64,000 nt of DNA, from contig CAMDOM010000002.1 in assembly GCA_945903645.1 (NCBI GenBank), positions 104,034-168,033 on the forward strand. Direction: 5' to 3'. This stretch comes from Chryseobacterium gleum. Lineage in GTDB: Bacteria > Bacteroidota > Bacteroidia > UBA10329. A program made the translations under genes and the position numbers. Of the stretch, positions 5,070-57,336 are shown piece after piece. Within the stretch, counting starts at the first letter, position 1, and every line of letters begins with the position of its first letter. Under the pieces are notes generated by a model. That model saw nothing but the letters and a program-made list of their open reading frames with translations. It was not told the origin of the DNA and did not search any database.

Positions 5070-6746
5070 ATGGAACAAAAAATCTGGCATCAGCACTACC
5101 CCCAAGGCGTACCCACCGAAATCAATCCCGACAGCTATCCAAGCATCTTAGCTGCTTTTGAAGATAGCTGCGCAAAATATGGCGACAAAGTGGCGTTTGA
5201 AAACATGGGCGTTTCGCTCACATTCAATCAGCTGAAACAACGGTCGCACAACTTTGCTGGATGGTTGCAAAAAAACACCGACCTAAAGCCTGGTGACCGT
5301 ATTGCCCTGCAAATGCCCAACCTTTTGCAATACCCAATTTGCATCTACGGCTCAATGCTGGCAGGTTTGGTAGTGGTGAATGTGAATCCACTCTACACCT
5401 CGCGAGAGATGGAGCACCAATTCAATGATTCGGGTGCCAAGGCGTTGGTTATCGTAGCTAATTTCTGTAACGAATTGCAAGAATGTCTTTCTAAAACAAG
5501 CATCAAGCACGTTATCGTTACGCGCATTCCCGATTTGTTTCCGCAGCCCAAGCAGTTTATCGTCAATCTGGTGCTGCAATACGTGAAGAAAATGGTGCCT
5601 GCCTACAGCATCGCCAACACAATTGATTTTAGAGAGCTTGTAAAAGACCATGGCTTGAAATGCAAACCAGCCACTTTGAAAGGAAGCGACACTGCTTTCT
5701 TGCAATACACGGGTGGAACAACGGGTGTTTCTAAAGGAGCCATACTTACACATCGCAACGTGATTGCCAATATGGAACAGATGAAAGCTTGGATGGGCGG
5801 CACGTTAAACGAGGGCGAAGAAGTGATTATCACTCCGCTACCGATGTACCACATTTTCTCACTTACAGTAAATTGCTTGGCGTTTATTTGCCTTGGCGGT
5901 AAAAATGTGTTGGTTACCAATCCGCGCGATATTCCAGCATTCATCAAAGAATTGAAGGCGCAAAAATGGACGGTGATGACTGGGGTGAATACGCTTTTCA
6001 ACGCATTGCTAAACAATGACGAATTCAAAACCATCGACTTTAGCAAGGTGAAAGCTGTGATTGGCGGTGCAATGGCTATTCAACGCCCCGTGGCCGAAAA
6101 ATGGAAACAAGTGACTGGCAATATCTTGGTGGAAGGCTATGGCCTGACTGAAAGTTCGCCTGTAGCATCTGCAAATCCACTCAATGGTTCAGCCCGAATT
6201 GGAACAATTGGAGTTCCTGTGCCAAGCACCGACATGAAATTATGCGATGAAAATGGCAAGGAAGTAGCCATAGGCGAACGTGGTGAAATTCTTATTAAAG
6301 GCCCGCAGGTTATGGAAGGCTACTACAACCGTCCCGAAGAAACTGCCAACCAAATTAAAGATGGATGGTTGCGCACGGGCGATGTGGCGGTGATGGCTAC
6401 CGATGGCTATTTCACTATTGTAGACCGCATCAAAGACATGATTTTGGTGTCTGGTTTCAATGTGTATCCCAACGAGGTGGAAGAAGTGATTGCTGCACAT
6501 CCAAAGGTTTTGGAAGTAGCGGCAATTGGAGTTCCTGATGAGAAATCATCTGAAGCGGTAAAAGTATTTGTGGTGAAAAAAGATGCATCACTTACAGAAA
6601 AAGATATAAAGGACCATTGTGCCGAAAACATGACCGGTTACAAACGCCCGAAATATGTGGTGTTTAGGGATGAATTGCCTAAAACCAACGTAGGCAAAAT
6701 TTTACGCAGAGCACTTCGCGAAGAAGAGCAAGCGGCAACCAAGTAA
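5070..6746 (+). CDS. fadD: Long-chain acyl-CoA synthetase (AMP-dependent ligase)
   Basis: YTGGTTGVSKGAILTHRN, GYGLTESSP, GWLRTGDVA, PKTNVGKILRR. Confidence 0.9.
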   Translation: MEQKIWHQHYPQGVPTEINPDSYPSILAAFEDSCAKYGDKVAFENMGVSLTFNQLKQRSHNFAGWLQKNTDLKPGDRIALQMPNLLQYPICIYGSMLAGLVVVNVNPLYTSREMEHQFNDSGAKALVIVANFCNELQECLSKTSIKHVIVTRIPDLFPQPKQFIVNLVLQYVKKMVPAYSIANTIDFRELVKDHGLKCKPATLKGSDTAFLQYTGGTTGVSKGAILTHRNVIANMEQMKAWMGGTLNEGEEVIITPLPMYHIFSLTVNCLAFICLGGKNVLVTNPRDIPAFIKELKAQKWTVMTGVNTLFNALLNNDEFKTIDFSKVKAVIGGAMAIQRPVAEKWKQVTGNILVEGYGLTESSPVASANPLNGSARIGTIGVPVPSTDMKLCDENGKEVAIGERGEILIKGPQVMEGYYNRPEETANQIKDGWLRTGDVAVMATDGYFTIVDRIKDMILVSGFNVYPNEVEEVIAAHPKVLEVAAIGVPDEKSSEAVKVFVVKKDASLTEKDIKDHCAENMTGYKRPKYVVFRDELPKTNVGKILRRALREEEQAATK

Positions 6747-6767
6747 TCCCTTGTTGCAACTTTTAAT

Positions 6768-6800
6768 AAAGGAGCGAGTCGTTTGGCTCGCTCCTTTATT
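6768..6800 (+). terminator. Intrinsic terminator downstream of acyl-CoA synthetase
   Basis: Perfect stem AAAGGAGCGAG / CTCGCTCCTTT followed by ATTGTT. Confidence 0.8.
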
Positions 6801-6966
6801 GTTCGCTTAGTTTCTGAGCAATGAAAATTCGCAGCTACGCGAATGTATATAATGGGCTAAAACGCCAAAAATGTTCATGAACCACCTCATCTAGGTTCAT
6901 AAGGTGTTCACAATCGGTTAGTAGTCGGTTAGTCGATTGTGCGCAAATAGCGCCCAAAAAATTAGG

Positions 6967-6994
6967 TTGGCACGTCTCCACTCCCCTATCTTTG
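6967..6994 (+). promoter_or_regulatory. Bacteroidetes-type promoter (TTG-N17-TATCTTTG) in front of putative ncRNA
   Basis: TTG at 6967-6969 and TAnnTTTG at 6987-6994. Confidence 0.55.
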
Positions 6995-6999
6995 ACATA

Positions 7000-7290
7000 T
7001 CAAATAAGAGATAAAAGGCTGGCCGCAAGGTCACCTCCAAAGAAGTCTCACGGGACAGTCAGAGGAGAATCGTCAAAATCCAAAGTTCAGCTTGCTGAAT
7101 GATGGTAAGGTTGAAAGGAAAGAAATCTGCTTGCAGAAAGAAGACCAAGAGGCCAAATGAACCAACAGCTTGCTGGTGGGGAATTGCAGACAAAGCCAAA
7201 ATAACTGTAGTTTGAAGCCCTCATTAGGTTACGGCCTTTTGAATCGTTAAACGGAGATTAGCTTCAAGGCTGGTCTCCGTTTCTGTTTTG
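7000..7290 (+). ncRNA. Putative free-standing structured ncRNA, family not recognised
   Basis: Long-range helix AAAAGGC (7013-7019)/GCCTTTT (7234-7240); GGCC-GCAA-GGTC hairpin; three CUUG-tetraloop hairpins at 7086, 7126, 7162; terminator at 7248-7285; no ORF; flanked by convergent CDSs. Confidence 0.65.
7248..7287 (+). terminator. Intrinsic terminator of the putative ncRNA
   Basis: AACGGAGA ... TCTCCGTT followed by TCTGTTTT. Confidence 0.75.
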
Positions 7291-7333: not shown

Positions 7334-9589
7334 CTATTTCAACTCCCAAGCCACTCCCACATATAACTCGCGGCCATGGATGGGGCTGTAGGAATAGGAG
7401 GTGTCGAACAACGGGCTAAAACCGATGTTGGCATTGGGATCATTGTATCCCGTTAGAGGAGAAACAGGCTGTTTGTAGTCCATAATGTTTTCCATTCCTG
7501 CAAAAATGCGCAACGAGGCTTTGTTCCATGTATAGGTTATTTGCAAAACATCCAAGTAAAAAGGCTTGGATGTTGTGGGGCGCGAAGTGGGCAAAGGCAA
7601 CCCTGAAGCATCCAAATCATACACTTTGGGCAAGTGCATTGGGCCTACAAAATTCATGGTATAGGCAAATTCGAGGTGTGCCTTTTTCCACCGATAAGAC
7701 AACACCCCATTGCCCGACCATTCGGATGCAAAATTTAAGAACGTAGATTCAAACTGACCAGCTGCATTGCGCTCGGTTTGCTTGGCGTTCAAATAATTGA
7801 ACCCAAGGCGTATGGTAATTGGAAAAGAAAAACTGTGATTAACAGCAGCACTAATGCCCCACGATTGGACGTTTCCATAGGTGTTGCCATAGATTATTTG
7901 CCCAGGACTGTCGTAGTTGGGAATAATACGATTGGTGAAATAGGTGTAAAATCCATCTACATCTACGCTGCCCTGCGCTGTGCCAAGGGTGTAGATATGG
8001 TTGAAATTGAGTGCGGCATTGTATGATTGTTCCGGTTTCAATTCATCTTTTAGAACCACTTCGCGCTGACCAGTAATGAAGGCATGATCTTCGGTAAATA
8101 AGTTGACCACCTTAAATCCTGTACCCAAATTGAGGCGAAATGTAGTCCACTGTCCTGGGCGATATTTTAAGTTGACACGAGGTGAAAACACCTGGCCATG
8201 CACCGAATAATAGTCTAACCGCACGCCACCCAGCAATTGCCAAACGCTTGGTTTTATGGTCCATTCGTCTTGCAGAAATATGCCGGGTATAAATTGACGT
8301 TCTGGTTCTATGGCCGTAGCAACGGTGTTGTCGTCATAAAATTGAAAGCGCCCGGTGAGTCCTGCAGTTAAATCATGCTTTTTTATCGCCCGATTCCAAA
8401 TTAGATTTCCAAATGCTATGTATTGCAAAGCGAGATACTGATTGGCGCCATAGTAGCTATCCTGATTGTGATAGCTTGCTGAAAAATCGAACCGAAATCG
8501 CTCTTTGAAAGGAAGTTCGTAGGTTCCAAACAGTTCTGCGCGATGGGTGTAAATGCTTTCGCCATAAATGCTGTCGCTACCACGCAGTTCTCTGTAGGCG
8601 CGGTCTTTCAAAAATGCCTCTACACCATTGCGTCTATCTTCGAAATAATACTTGCCCATAAGCTGCAATTTGCGCTGCTCTTTACGCTTCAAAGTCCATT
8701 TGGTGAAGGCGGAAACACGTTCCATGTTGACGATGTCTCCGAAACCATCTTCATTGTCATCGTCATATAAATCTACTGTTCCCACATTGGCACCAATGGT
8801 TCCGTTCCACTTGCCCACTTTTGGCGACCACGCAATGTTTCCGAAGGTTTCCAGGTGAGATGTTACCCGAATATCGGCAGCAATCAACGGTTGGTCTTGA
8901 GGGTTTTTAGTAATAATATTGATGACACCCGCCATAGCTTCCGACCCATAAAGCGTAGAATTCGGGCCTTTTATCACTTCAATTCGATCAATCATTTGCC
9001 TCGGAATGCCATTGAGACCATACACCGAAGCCAGATTGCCATATACAGGACTACCATCTACCAACAGGGCGGTATACTGTCCAGGAAAACCATTGATACT
9101 TATGCTATTGGTGTAACACACGCCACAACTTACCACCTCTTGAACGCCATTTATCAACTTAAGTGCCGACATTAAATTGGTAGGTGAAGTGGTGCGTTCA
9201 AGTAACTCGACCGTAATCACTTCCACTTTGACGGGTGATGCTGTAACGAAACTCTCTTTCATAGTACCACTCACCACAACTTCCTCCAAACCGAGCACAT
9301 CTGGCATTAGCGCAACTTTCCCCAATGCCACATCCGAACCGTTAACCGCAACCTTCACCTCTTCTCGTCTAAAACCAATGGCGCTAAACAACAACACGTG
9401 GTTGCCGTTGCCCACTGCTTTAAGGGTAAACTTACCGTCTACATCAGCGCTTGTACCTACGGAAGTGCCCTTCACTACAATGTTTGCAAATGGCACAGCC
9501 TCAGCACCACTGGTTACTTGGCCTGTAAGGACATGCTGCGCCCAAGCCACATTCGTAAGAAAATATAAGAGTAACGTCAGGATTTTCAC
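7334..9589 (-). CDS. TonB-dependent outer-membrane receptor with carboxypeptidase-like regulatory domain, probably metal-related
   Basis: 751 aa; N-terminal VLTGQVTSGAEAVPFANIVVKGTSVGTSADVDGKF, plug (GMxxI)IDRIEVIKGPNSTLYGSEAMAGVINIITK; divergent from mntR. Confidence 0.9.
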   Translation of the reverse strand: MKILTLLLYFLTNVAWAQHVLTGQVTSGAEAVPFANIVVKGTSVGTSADVDGKFTLKAVGNGNHVLLFSAIGFRREEVKVAVNGSDVALGKVALMPDVLGLEEVVVSGTMKESFVTASPVKVEVITVELLERTTSPTNLMSALKLINGVQEVVSCGVCYTNSISINGFPGQYTALLVDGSPVYGNLASVYGLNGIPRQMIDRIEVIKGPNSTLYGSEAMAGVINIITKNPQDQPLIAADIRVTSHLETFGNIAWSPKVGKWNGTIGANVGTVDLYDDDNEDGFGDIVNMERVSAFTKWTLKRKEQRKLQLMGKYYFEDRRNGVEAFLKDRAYRELRGSDSIYGESIYTHRAELFGTYELPFKERFRFDFSASYHNQDSYYGANQYLALQYIAFGNLIWNRAIKKHDLTAGLTGRFQFYDDNTVATAIEPERQFIPGIFLQDEWTIKPSVWQLLGGVRLDYYSVHGQVFSPRVNLKYRPGQWTTFRLNLGTGFKVVNLFTEDHAFITGQREVVLKDELKPEQSYNAALNFNHIYTLGTAQGSVDVDGFYTYFTNRIIPNYDSPGQIIYGNTYGNVQSWGISAAVNHSFSFPITIRLGFNYLNAKQTERNAAGQFESTFLNFASEWSGNGVLSYRWKKAHLEFAYTMNFVGPMHLPKVYDLDASGLPLPTSRPTTSKPFYLDVLQITYTWNKASLRIFAGMENIMDYKQPVSPLTGYNDPNANIGFSPLFDTSYSYSPIHGRELYVGVAWELK

Positions 9590-53186: not shown

Positions 53187-53224
53187 TTTTCATTTCCATC
53201 CTTTCTTCCCGAAGGGGGTGGAAA

Positions 53225-53425
53225 CATGATGCTTGAGGCAGGTCTTCTGACTTGTTCTACTTTCTATCGGGCCTTCCCATTGCGCTTTGCAACAGTGGCA
53301 CTGGTTATTCAGAAAGTTCCTAATTCAATACATGAACTAGGATAAAGAACTTACAGCTGCGGGAACAGTATCCGATTCTCACGGAATTCCCATTTTAATC
53401 CGTCCCATTCGAAATGAATGTTCAA
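53225..53425 (-). promoter_or_regulatory. Cobalamin riboswitch
   Basis: Minus strand: GGGAATTCCGTGAGAATCGGATACTGTTCCCGCAGCTGTAA ... CAGTGCCACTG ... GGGAAGGC ... GAAGACCTGCCTC. Confidence 0.92.
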
Positions 53426-53528
53426 GAACCAAAAGCGGGGCAAATGTAGAAAGGTTATCGGAACAAAACGGTTATCTTTTTTTTGTACCAGTAGAGGCAA
53501 TGTACCAAAATCTCATGCCAGGATACTG

Positions 53529-57258: not shown

Positions 57259-57331
57259 GATCTGGTAGCTCAGCTGGTAGAGCATAACACTTTTAATGTT
57301 AGGGTCCTGGGTTCGAGCCCCAGCCAGGTCA
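57259..57331 (+). tRNA. tRNA-Lys (anticodon TTT)
   Basis: Cloverleaf: acceptor GATCTGG/CCAGGTC, anticodon arm TAACA-CTTTTAA-TGTTA, T arm CTGGG-TTCGAGC-CCCAG. Confidence 0.96.
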
Positions 57332-57336
57332 CACCG

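Follow-up and report, generated by a model that had tools for sequence, protein, structure and literature searches.

The window examined here (the whole stretch of DNA that was analysed, 64,000 nt) contains, between two protein-coding genes, a segment that raises two questions: does it specify a structured non-coding RNA (ncRNA), and, if so, to which family does that RNA belong and how might it be controlled? An earlier, sequence-only reading had placed a free-standing RNA gene of an unrecognised family at this site. Comparison with related genomes supports the prediction that positions 6987-7290 constitute a free-standing structured ncRNA gene that has no relative in Rfam, and the family of structured RNAs to which it belongs is almost certainly real.

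The predicted transcription unit

The region from 7000 to 7242 is non-coding, with no overlapping open reading frame (ORF) of 50 aa or more. It is flanked upstream by a gene for an acyl-CoA synthetase (5070-6746, + strand) and downstream by a gene for a TonB-type receptor (7334-9589, - strand); thus, its description as a non-coding stretch between convergent genes is borne out. A symmetric GC-rich hairpin (AAAGGAGCGAG/CTCGCTCCTTT) at 6766-6803, between the acyl-CoA synthetase gene and the array of sites discussed below, is probably the terminator of that gene. Elsewhere, the window contains a cobalamin riboswitch (RF00174, 79.5 bits; 53220-53448, - strand) and a single tRNA, tRNA-Lys (ttt), at 57259-57332 (+ strand).

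A Bacteroidota-type promoter lies on the + strand at 6967-6994. It is composed of a TTG -33 box (6967-6969), a 17-nt spacer, and the -7 box TATCTTTG (6987-6994), boxes which, from established knowledge of Bacteroidota promoters, we take to be a functional promoter. This TTG-N17-TATCTTTG arrangement had been recognised in the sequence-only reading, and it is kept in homologs as TTTGG...TANNTTTG. Given the position of the -7 box, and because the closing helix P1 (see below) begins there, the 5' end of the RNA is predicted to lie near 7000. The predicted product, about 290 nt in length (7000-7290, + strand), would end within the U-run of an intrinsic terminator (7249-7290, + strand), in which a stem of 15 pairs (7249-7282) is followed by CTGTTTTG/CUGUUUUG. 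The proposal that a terminator closes the unit is therefore confirmed, and the terminator is a strong one.

Comparative evidence for a structured RNA

Folding energy does not support the RNA. The region 7000-7242 folds no better than shuffled sequences (z = -0.28), and inclusion of the terminator (z = -2.2) provides no proof of a structured RNA either. Consequently, the argument must be comparative. A nucleotide search of related Bacteroidetes, as originally suggested, finds homologs both within the genus and beyond it: BLAST identifies congeneric members and a further one from a different family (G053), and the promoter, the 5' end, the 3' end, and the terminator are common to all seven sequences that were aligned. 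A covariance model, R1, gives full-length matches of 193 and 181 bits in two congeners outside its training set. Within the genus, the RNA is present in seven of nine genomes, the two negatives being 70% and 83% complete, and one genome (G007) has two copies. When the structure is written from comparison, compensatory (both-side) changes are present in 25 of the 43 pairs of the seven-sequence alignment; the covariation score is 0.513, versus 0.268 +/- 0.024 in shuffles, and all slid controls collapse. Since homologs with compensatory changes exist, the RNA goes beyond what chance would produce, and the covariation, which had been named as a check on the RNA, is strong.

The RNA (all positions on the + strand) is closed by P1, in which UCAAAU (7000-7005) pairs with GUUUGA (7210-7215). 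This helix undergoes C-G/U-A/A-U and G-C/A-U exchanges, its outer pair varies among C-G, U-G, and U-A across the family, and its pairing is maintained in 100% of cells in the genus set and in 97.5% of those in 46 diverse relatives. P1 is followed by an internal loop whose 5' strand is AAGAGAUAAAA (7006-7016; family consensus GAGRGAUAAAA) and whose 3' strand is AAAAUAACUGUA (7198-7209; family consensus AYAAUAACWGUA). Conservation of the 5' strand is partly imposed by the pattern that was used to scan genomes, whereas that of the 3' strand is not. Position 10 of the 5' strand covaries with the W of AACWGUA (A with U, G with A), which suggests a conserved, partly non-canonical pair. On the far side of the loop, P2 joins GGCU (7017-7020) to AGCC (7194-7197), with exchanges among GGCU/AGCC, GACU/AGUC, and GGU/ACC.

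The interior of the window RNA contains five further elements. P3 (GGCC-GCAA-GGUC, 7021-7032), which has a GNRA loop, and P6 (UCUG-CUUG-CAGA, 7126-7137) are placed from the covariation alignment. In the P4 arm (7034-7067), CUCC (7035-7038) pairs with GGAG (7064-7067) and, further in, GUCU (7045-7048) pairs with GGAC (7053-7056); the outer helix has compensatory change in three of its five pairs. P5 (UUCAG-CUUG-CUGAA, 7086-7099) has both-side changes in 7/7 columns, in a looser alignment that is 73% paired, and three of four pairs are compensatory in P7 (CCAACAG-CUUG-CUGGUGG, 7162-7179). Downstream of P1, a final hairpin, P8 (AGGU-UACG-GCCU, 7226-7237), has a UNCG-type loop that is mostly UACG across the family. 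Alignment of 46 diverse members provides family-wide support for P1, P2 (3/4 pairs covary), and P8 (compensatory change in 4/5 pairs); alignment of the interior across families is unreliable, and family-wide claims are limited here to P1, P2, P8, and the loops.

Much of this structure had been visible in the single sequence. The GCAA-loop hairpin is present as described, as is an arm given as CCTC...GAGG, which takes the form CCTCC...GGAG at 7034-7067. The three hairpins with CUUG loops (P5, P6, and P7) are also where they had been placed, but the loops themselves are not conserved, being UUCG, UUAG, UACG, or CUCG in relatives. In contrast, a helix proposed to join the two ends of the RNA, AAAAGGC (7013-7019) with GCCTTTT (7234-7240), has to be abandoned. 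Single-sequence folding yields this helix, but it has no compensatory change in seven relatives and it is incompatible with P2 and P8, two covarying helices that contain its bases instead. The helix that closes the RNA is P1.

Extent and architecture of the family

Many weak R1 matches (12-20 bits) are attributable to chance. Others, in other families (f23, f14, and f2), are the two ends of far longer RNAs, located 480-540 nt apart; these long members begin with CAAGTGAGRGATAAAAGGC and finish with AAYAATAACAGTAGCTTGG, a hairpin, and a terminator. A scan of GTDB genomes, with a pattern made from the promoter and the 5' end and leaving out the 3' end, returned 102 stretches, nearly all in Bacteroidota, and the 3' end follows in 93 of them at a distance of about 145-555 nt. 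Named carriers are Aquiflexum, Cognataquiflexum, Cecembia, Mariniradius, Rhodonellum, Pararhodonellum, Pleomorphovibrio, and Algoriphagus; further carriers include many MAGs of Bacteroidales, Flavobacteriales, and Flammeovirgaceae. The few records labelled Alphaproteobacteria or Chlorobiota presumably reflect errors of binning or naming, and a match in Runella (L105) is probably false, since it falls where the sequence looks coding. Of 149 Cyclobacteriaceae genomes, at least 30 carry the RNA, in 1-3 copies each, as judged by a model that is biased to short forms. Because RNA-negative genomes occur even in such carrier families, the RNA is not universally essential. At five loci (L120, L126, L145, L151, and L173), two copies of the ncRNA lie within about 0.8-2 kb, each with its own promoter; these are paralogous tandem genes.

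All members share the promoter, P1, the internal loop (GAGRGAUAAAA/AYAAUAACWGUA), P2, P8, and the terminator, and, family-wide, the loop that separates P1 from P2 hardly varies. The interior differs by clade and ranges in length from about 145 to 555 nt; thus, the window RNA is one of the shorter members of a family of large RNAs. In the 538-nt class of Algoriphagus, the consensus fold consists of tandem three-way junctions with the repeat GGCRY-AAGG...GAGACGGGYAACCGCAGAARUGC. Algoriphagus boseongensis has a form of 537 nt, and a form of 225 nt is predicted for Aquiflexum or Cecembia.

Such forms invite comparison with GOLLD, ROOL, and OLE, which are likewise free-standing RNAs of large size, rich structure, and obscure function and which form homo-oligomers (PMC12286853). 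An RNA-only assembly or scaffold of that type, in which the variable modules multimerise and there is no dedicated protein core, would suit a size of up to 555 nt and ornate, multi-junction folds like the tandem junctions of the 538-nt class. However, the RNA has no sequence or structure-profile similarity in Rfam to these families, the part most conserved is the small core, and an interior that shrinks to about 145 nt leaves little to assemble. We therefore consider this explanation distinctly unlikely. The present family differs further in having a core that is small and constant, an interior free to vary, and DnaA-like sites arrayed at the promoter, and in its restriction to Bacteroidota in what was found.

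Relation to known RNA families

A search of Rfam 15 with the window region, at E values up to 10, gives only unrelated weak matches outside the RNA. At the gathering cut-off there is no match to the RNA over the window, and there is none over 9 family loci or over 19, the latter containing only a TPP riboswitch elsewhere; the long forms give only weak matches, far below the cut-offs. The proposal of an unrecognised family, which Rfam was to decide, therefore holds for every length class. No description of the family was found among open-licence papers. Published transcriptome maps exist for Bacteroides thetaiotaomicron and Flavobacterium psychrophilum, and both of these mapped genera are absent among the named type-strain matches.

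A strong promoter, closed ends, and a wide distribution would all be expected of a divergent housekeeping RNA (RNase P RNA, tmRNA, or SRP RNA). This identity is scarcely credible: 11 of 12 carriers have RNase P RNA (RF00010) at another place (including G000:C33:28358-28721, 194 bits), ARAGORN detects the tRNA-Lys and no tmRNA in the window, even permissive Rfam searches give no match, and the copy number reaches 3. The sequence-only reading had been correct in setting aside both RNase P and tmRNA.

6S RNA (RF00013, RF01685) also has paired ends and a conserved internal loop, and the closed stem and large loop of the present RNA could serve as a polymerase decoy in which P1, the open loop, and P2 together resemble an open promoter. 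Neither 6S model gives anything over the cut-off in carriers, a result that favours this idea, although the same RF00013 search also missed a Bacteroides control, so that a true 6S RNA may have escaped it. On the other hand, P1 (6 bp) and P2 (3-4 bp) are too short for the duplex arms of 6S RNA, the interior is multibranched with short arms, the gene is multicopy, the RNA itself has no profile match, and weak, sub-threshold matches to 6S-Flavo (RF01685) are located elsewhere in three congeners (L232-L234). A 6S-like decoy is thus very improbable.

In Y and YrlA RNAs, which associate with Ro60, a conserved terminal stem and loop form the binding site and the interior is variable. The resemblance to the present family is one of principle; TROVE (Ro60) is found in none of 21 carrier genomes, with a positive Deinobacterium control. 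CsrB and RsmZ similarly contain repeated hairpin modules in variable number, but CsrA is also absent in 21 of 21 carrier genomes, with positive controls. These absences remove both the Ro/Y-RNA and the Csr-sponge readings. Flavo-1 RNA (RF01705), a Bacteroidota motif of 76 positions present in the same genomes, is a separate multicopy element, with up to 29 copies per genome, and lies at other places than the RNA. Within the genus, its matches number 29 in G004, 25 in G005, 11 in G008, 5 in G000, and none in G007.

Genomic context

Across family loci there is no general neighbour gene. Neighbours are mixed, and the largest cluster, a biotin carboxylase-like protein at 11 loci, comes mostly from one syntenic clade. 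The nearest downstream ORF is opposed in 53 of 81 members, and 83 of 93 homologs have a terminator-like element. IMG/VR viral contigs contain no match to the family pattern, and plasmids gave no match for the one member tested. Together, these observations point to a chromosomal RNA gene that acts in trans, as does the combination of 1-3 copies with varying neighbours. A cis-regulatory leader or riboswitch is rejected on the basis of the mixed neighbours, the opposed ORFs, and the terminators.

One form of trans action would be base pairing with mRNAs, in which the structure would only stabilise the RNA and its control by the cell cycle would resemble that of Caulobacter CcnA, an origin-encoded cell-cycle ncRNA that acts on mRNAs (PMC8959179). 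A free-standing unit with a terminator is consistent with such an sRNA, and the variable interior could hold targets. However, whereas such an sRNA would expose its seed, the segments conserved here are enclosed in an internal loop, and between families the interior lacks seed-like conservation; we regard a base-pairing sRNA as unlikely. CcnA is also comparable as an ncRNA gene tied to DNA sites of replication control, but it lies within the origin and is presumed to be activated by CtrA (PMC8959179), whereas the present RNA is multicopy, does not coincide with a skew switch in two genomes, and is structurally unrelated to CcnA as far as known.

An array of DnaA-box-like sites upstream of the promoter

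The promoter is preceded by an array of sites that lies outside the coordinates of the sequence-only reading. These sites resemble the boxes bound by DnaA, the protein that starts DNA replication. Five degenerate 9-mers (GGTTCATAA, TGTTCACAA, GGTTAGTAG, GGTTAGTCG, and TGTGCGCAA; 6894-6946, + strand) start at 6894, 6905, 6916, 6927, and 6938, an exact period of 11 bp. It is the top-scoring array of five sites with 11-bp spacing anywhere in the 64 kb, whichever strand is read, with 29/40 versus 24 for the next unrelated one. Relatives have sites at the same positions, at -95/-94, -86 to -83, -76/-75, -63/-62, and -52/-51 from TTTG. In 63 non-redundant promoter regions (-100 to -35, measured from the -7 box), TGTKNATAA on either strand is present at 73 sites, versus 1.9 expected from dinucleotide shuffles, and perfect TGTGGATAA boxes occur 10 times, versus 0.03 in shuffles. 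The sites keep fixed distances from the promoter, their commonest spacings being 11 and 13 bp. The array accompanies both copies of the RNA in a complete 5.04-Mb genome, and in four of the five genomes with a match the Bacteroidales-type array pattern is restricted to the RNA locus; RNase P promoters of the same genomes have no such array by eye.

The DnaA consensus is TGTGGATAA, and the weak DnaA-ATP sites of E. coli oriC are arranged in arrays 2 bp apart, which corresponds to an 11-bp period (PMC6727663). A fixed-position array of DnaA-box-like sites, as a DnaA-controlled promoter would have, is present. However, the window boxes match the consensus only in part (29/40) and the family most often has TGTTNATAA in place of the canonical TGTGNATAA, so the array could belong to another factor. 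Whether DnaA binds it is, in our judgment, an even call.

Similar sites also exist apart from the RNA. A complete Bacteroidales chromosome carries a DnaA-box-like array upstream of an ORF and without the ncRNA (L193, G395:C1:2146790-2146831), which is possibly oriC or another regulated site, and at L275 (G517:C1:1211374) three perfect head-to-tail TGTGGATAA boxes with a 10-bp period lie in intergenic DNA away from the ncRNA. An oriC-encoded RNA was considered and rejected for G000 and G100, neither of which has a GC-skew switch at the RNA, and thus the array is not the origin in these two genomes; in G517, one of two copies is near a skew change that is too gradual to place, and the other copy is distant from it.

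The array stands out no less than the RNA does, and the DNA could itself be the key element, as a datA-like site of DnaA titration or a regulatory site, with the RNA as a secondary product; the array in G395 (2,146,790-2,146,831) that stands without the RNA is consistent with this. The extensive compensatory change nevertheless indicates selection on the RNA itself, and array and promoter are locked at a fixed distance, which makes a primary role for the DNA improbable.

A possible mechanism

The reading that we prefer begins with a free-standing, trans-acting ncRNA, one of the short members of a family that occurs across Bacteroidota in lengths of 145-555 nt. DnaA, probably DnaA-ATP filling close, weak sites cooperatively, would bind the array and switch or tune the promoter. 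Because of this proposed action of DnaA, the level of the RNA would follow the replication or growth state of the cell. The constant core (P1, the 11/12-nt loop, P2, and P8) would be where a shared protein partner binds, a suggestion for and against which we see the case as equally strong; that the loop is the protein site is a guess prompted by its conservation. The variable arms, such as the tandem three-way-junction modules of the Algoriphagus type, may be clade-specific domains for scaffolding or for contact with targets. The mechanism as a whole, with a DnaA-tuned promoter, a partner-bound core, variable arms, and trans action, is put forward tentatively, its chance of being right in every part lying at best somewhat short of even. 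A broader generalisation, that these are phylum-wide modular ncRNAs, controlled directly by DnaA via weak sites in an oriC-like arrangement, whose RNPs couple replication or growth state to physiology, is possible but doubtful.

Significance

To our knowledge, bacteria have few known families of large ncRNAs, most of which came to light in Rfam-type searches. No Rfam model exists for the family described here, despite its strong covariation, its constant core, and lengths that run from 145 to 555 nt. It may have been overlooked because no type genome of Bacteroides, Flavobacterium, or Prevotella is among the scan matches. Cultured hosts exist in Algoriphagus, Aquiflexum, and Cecembia, and the presence of a DnaA-like array at the promoter of an ncRNA leads to a testable hypothesis, that expression of the RNA would be coupled to replication.
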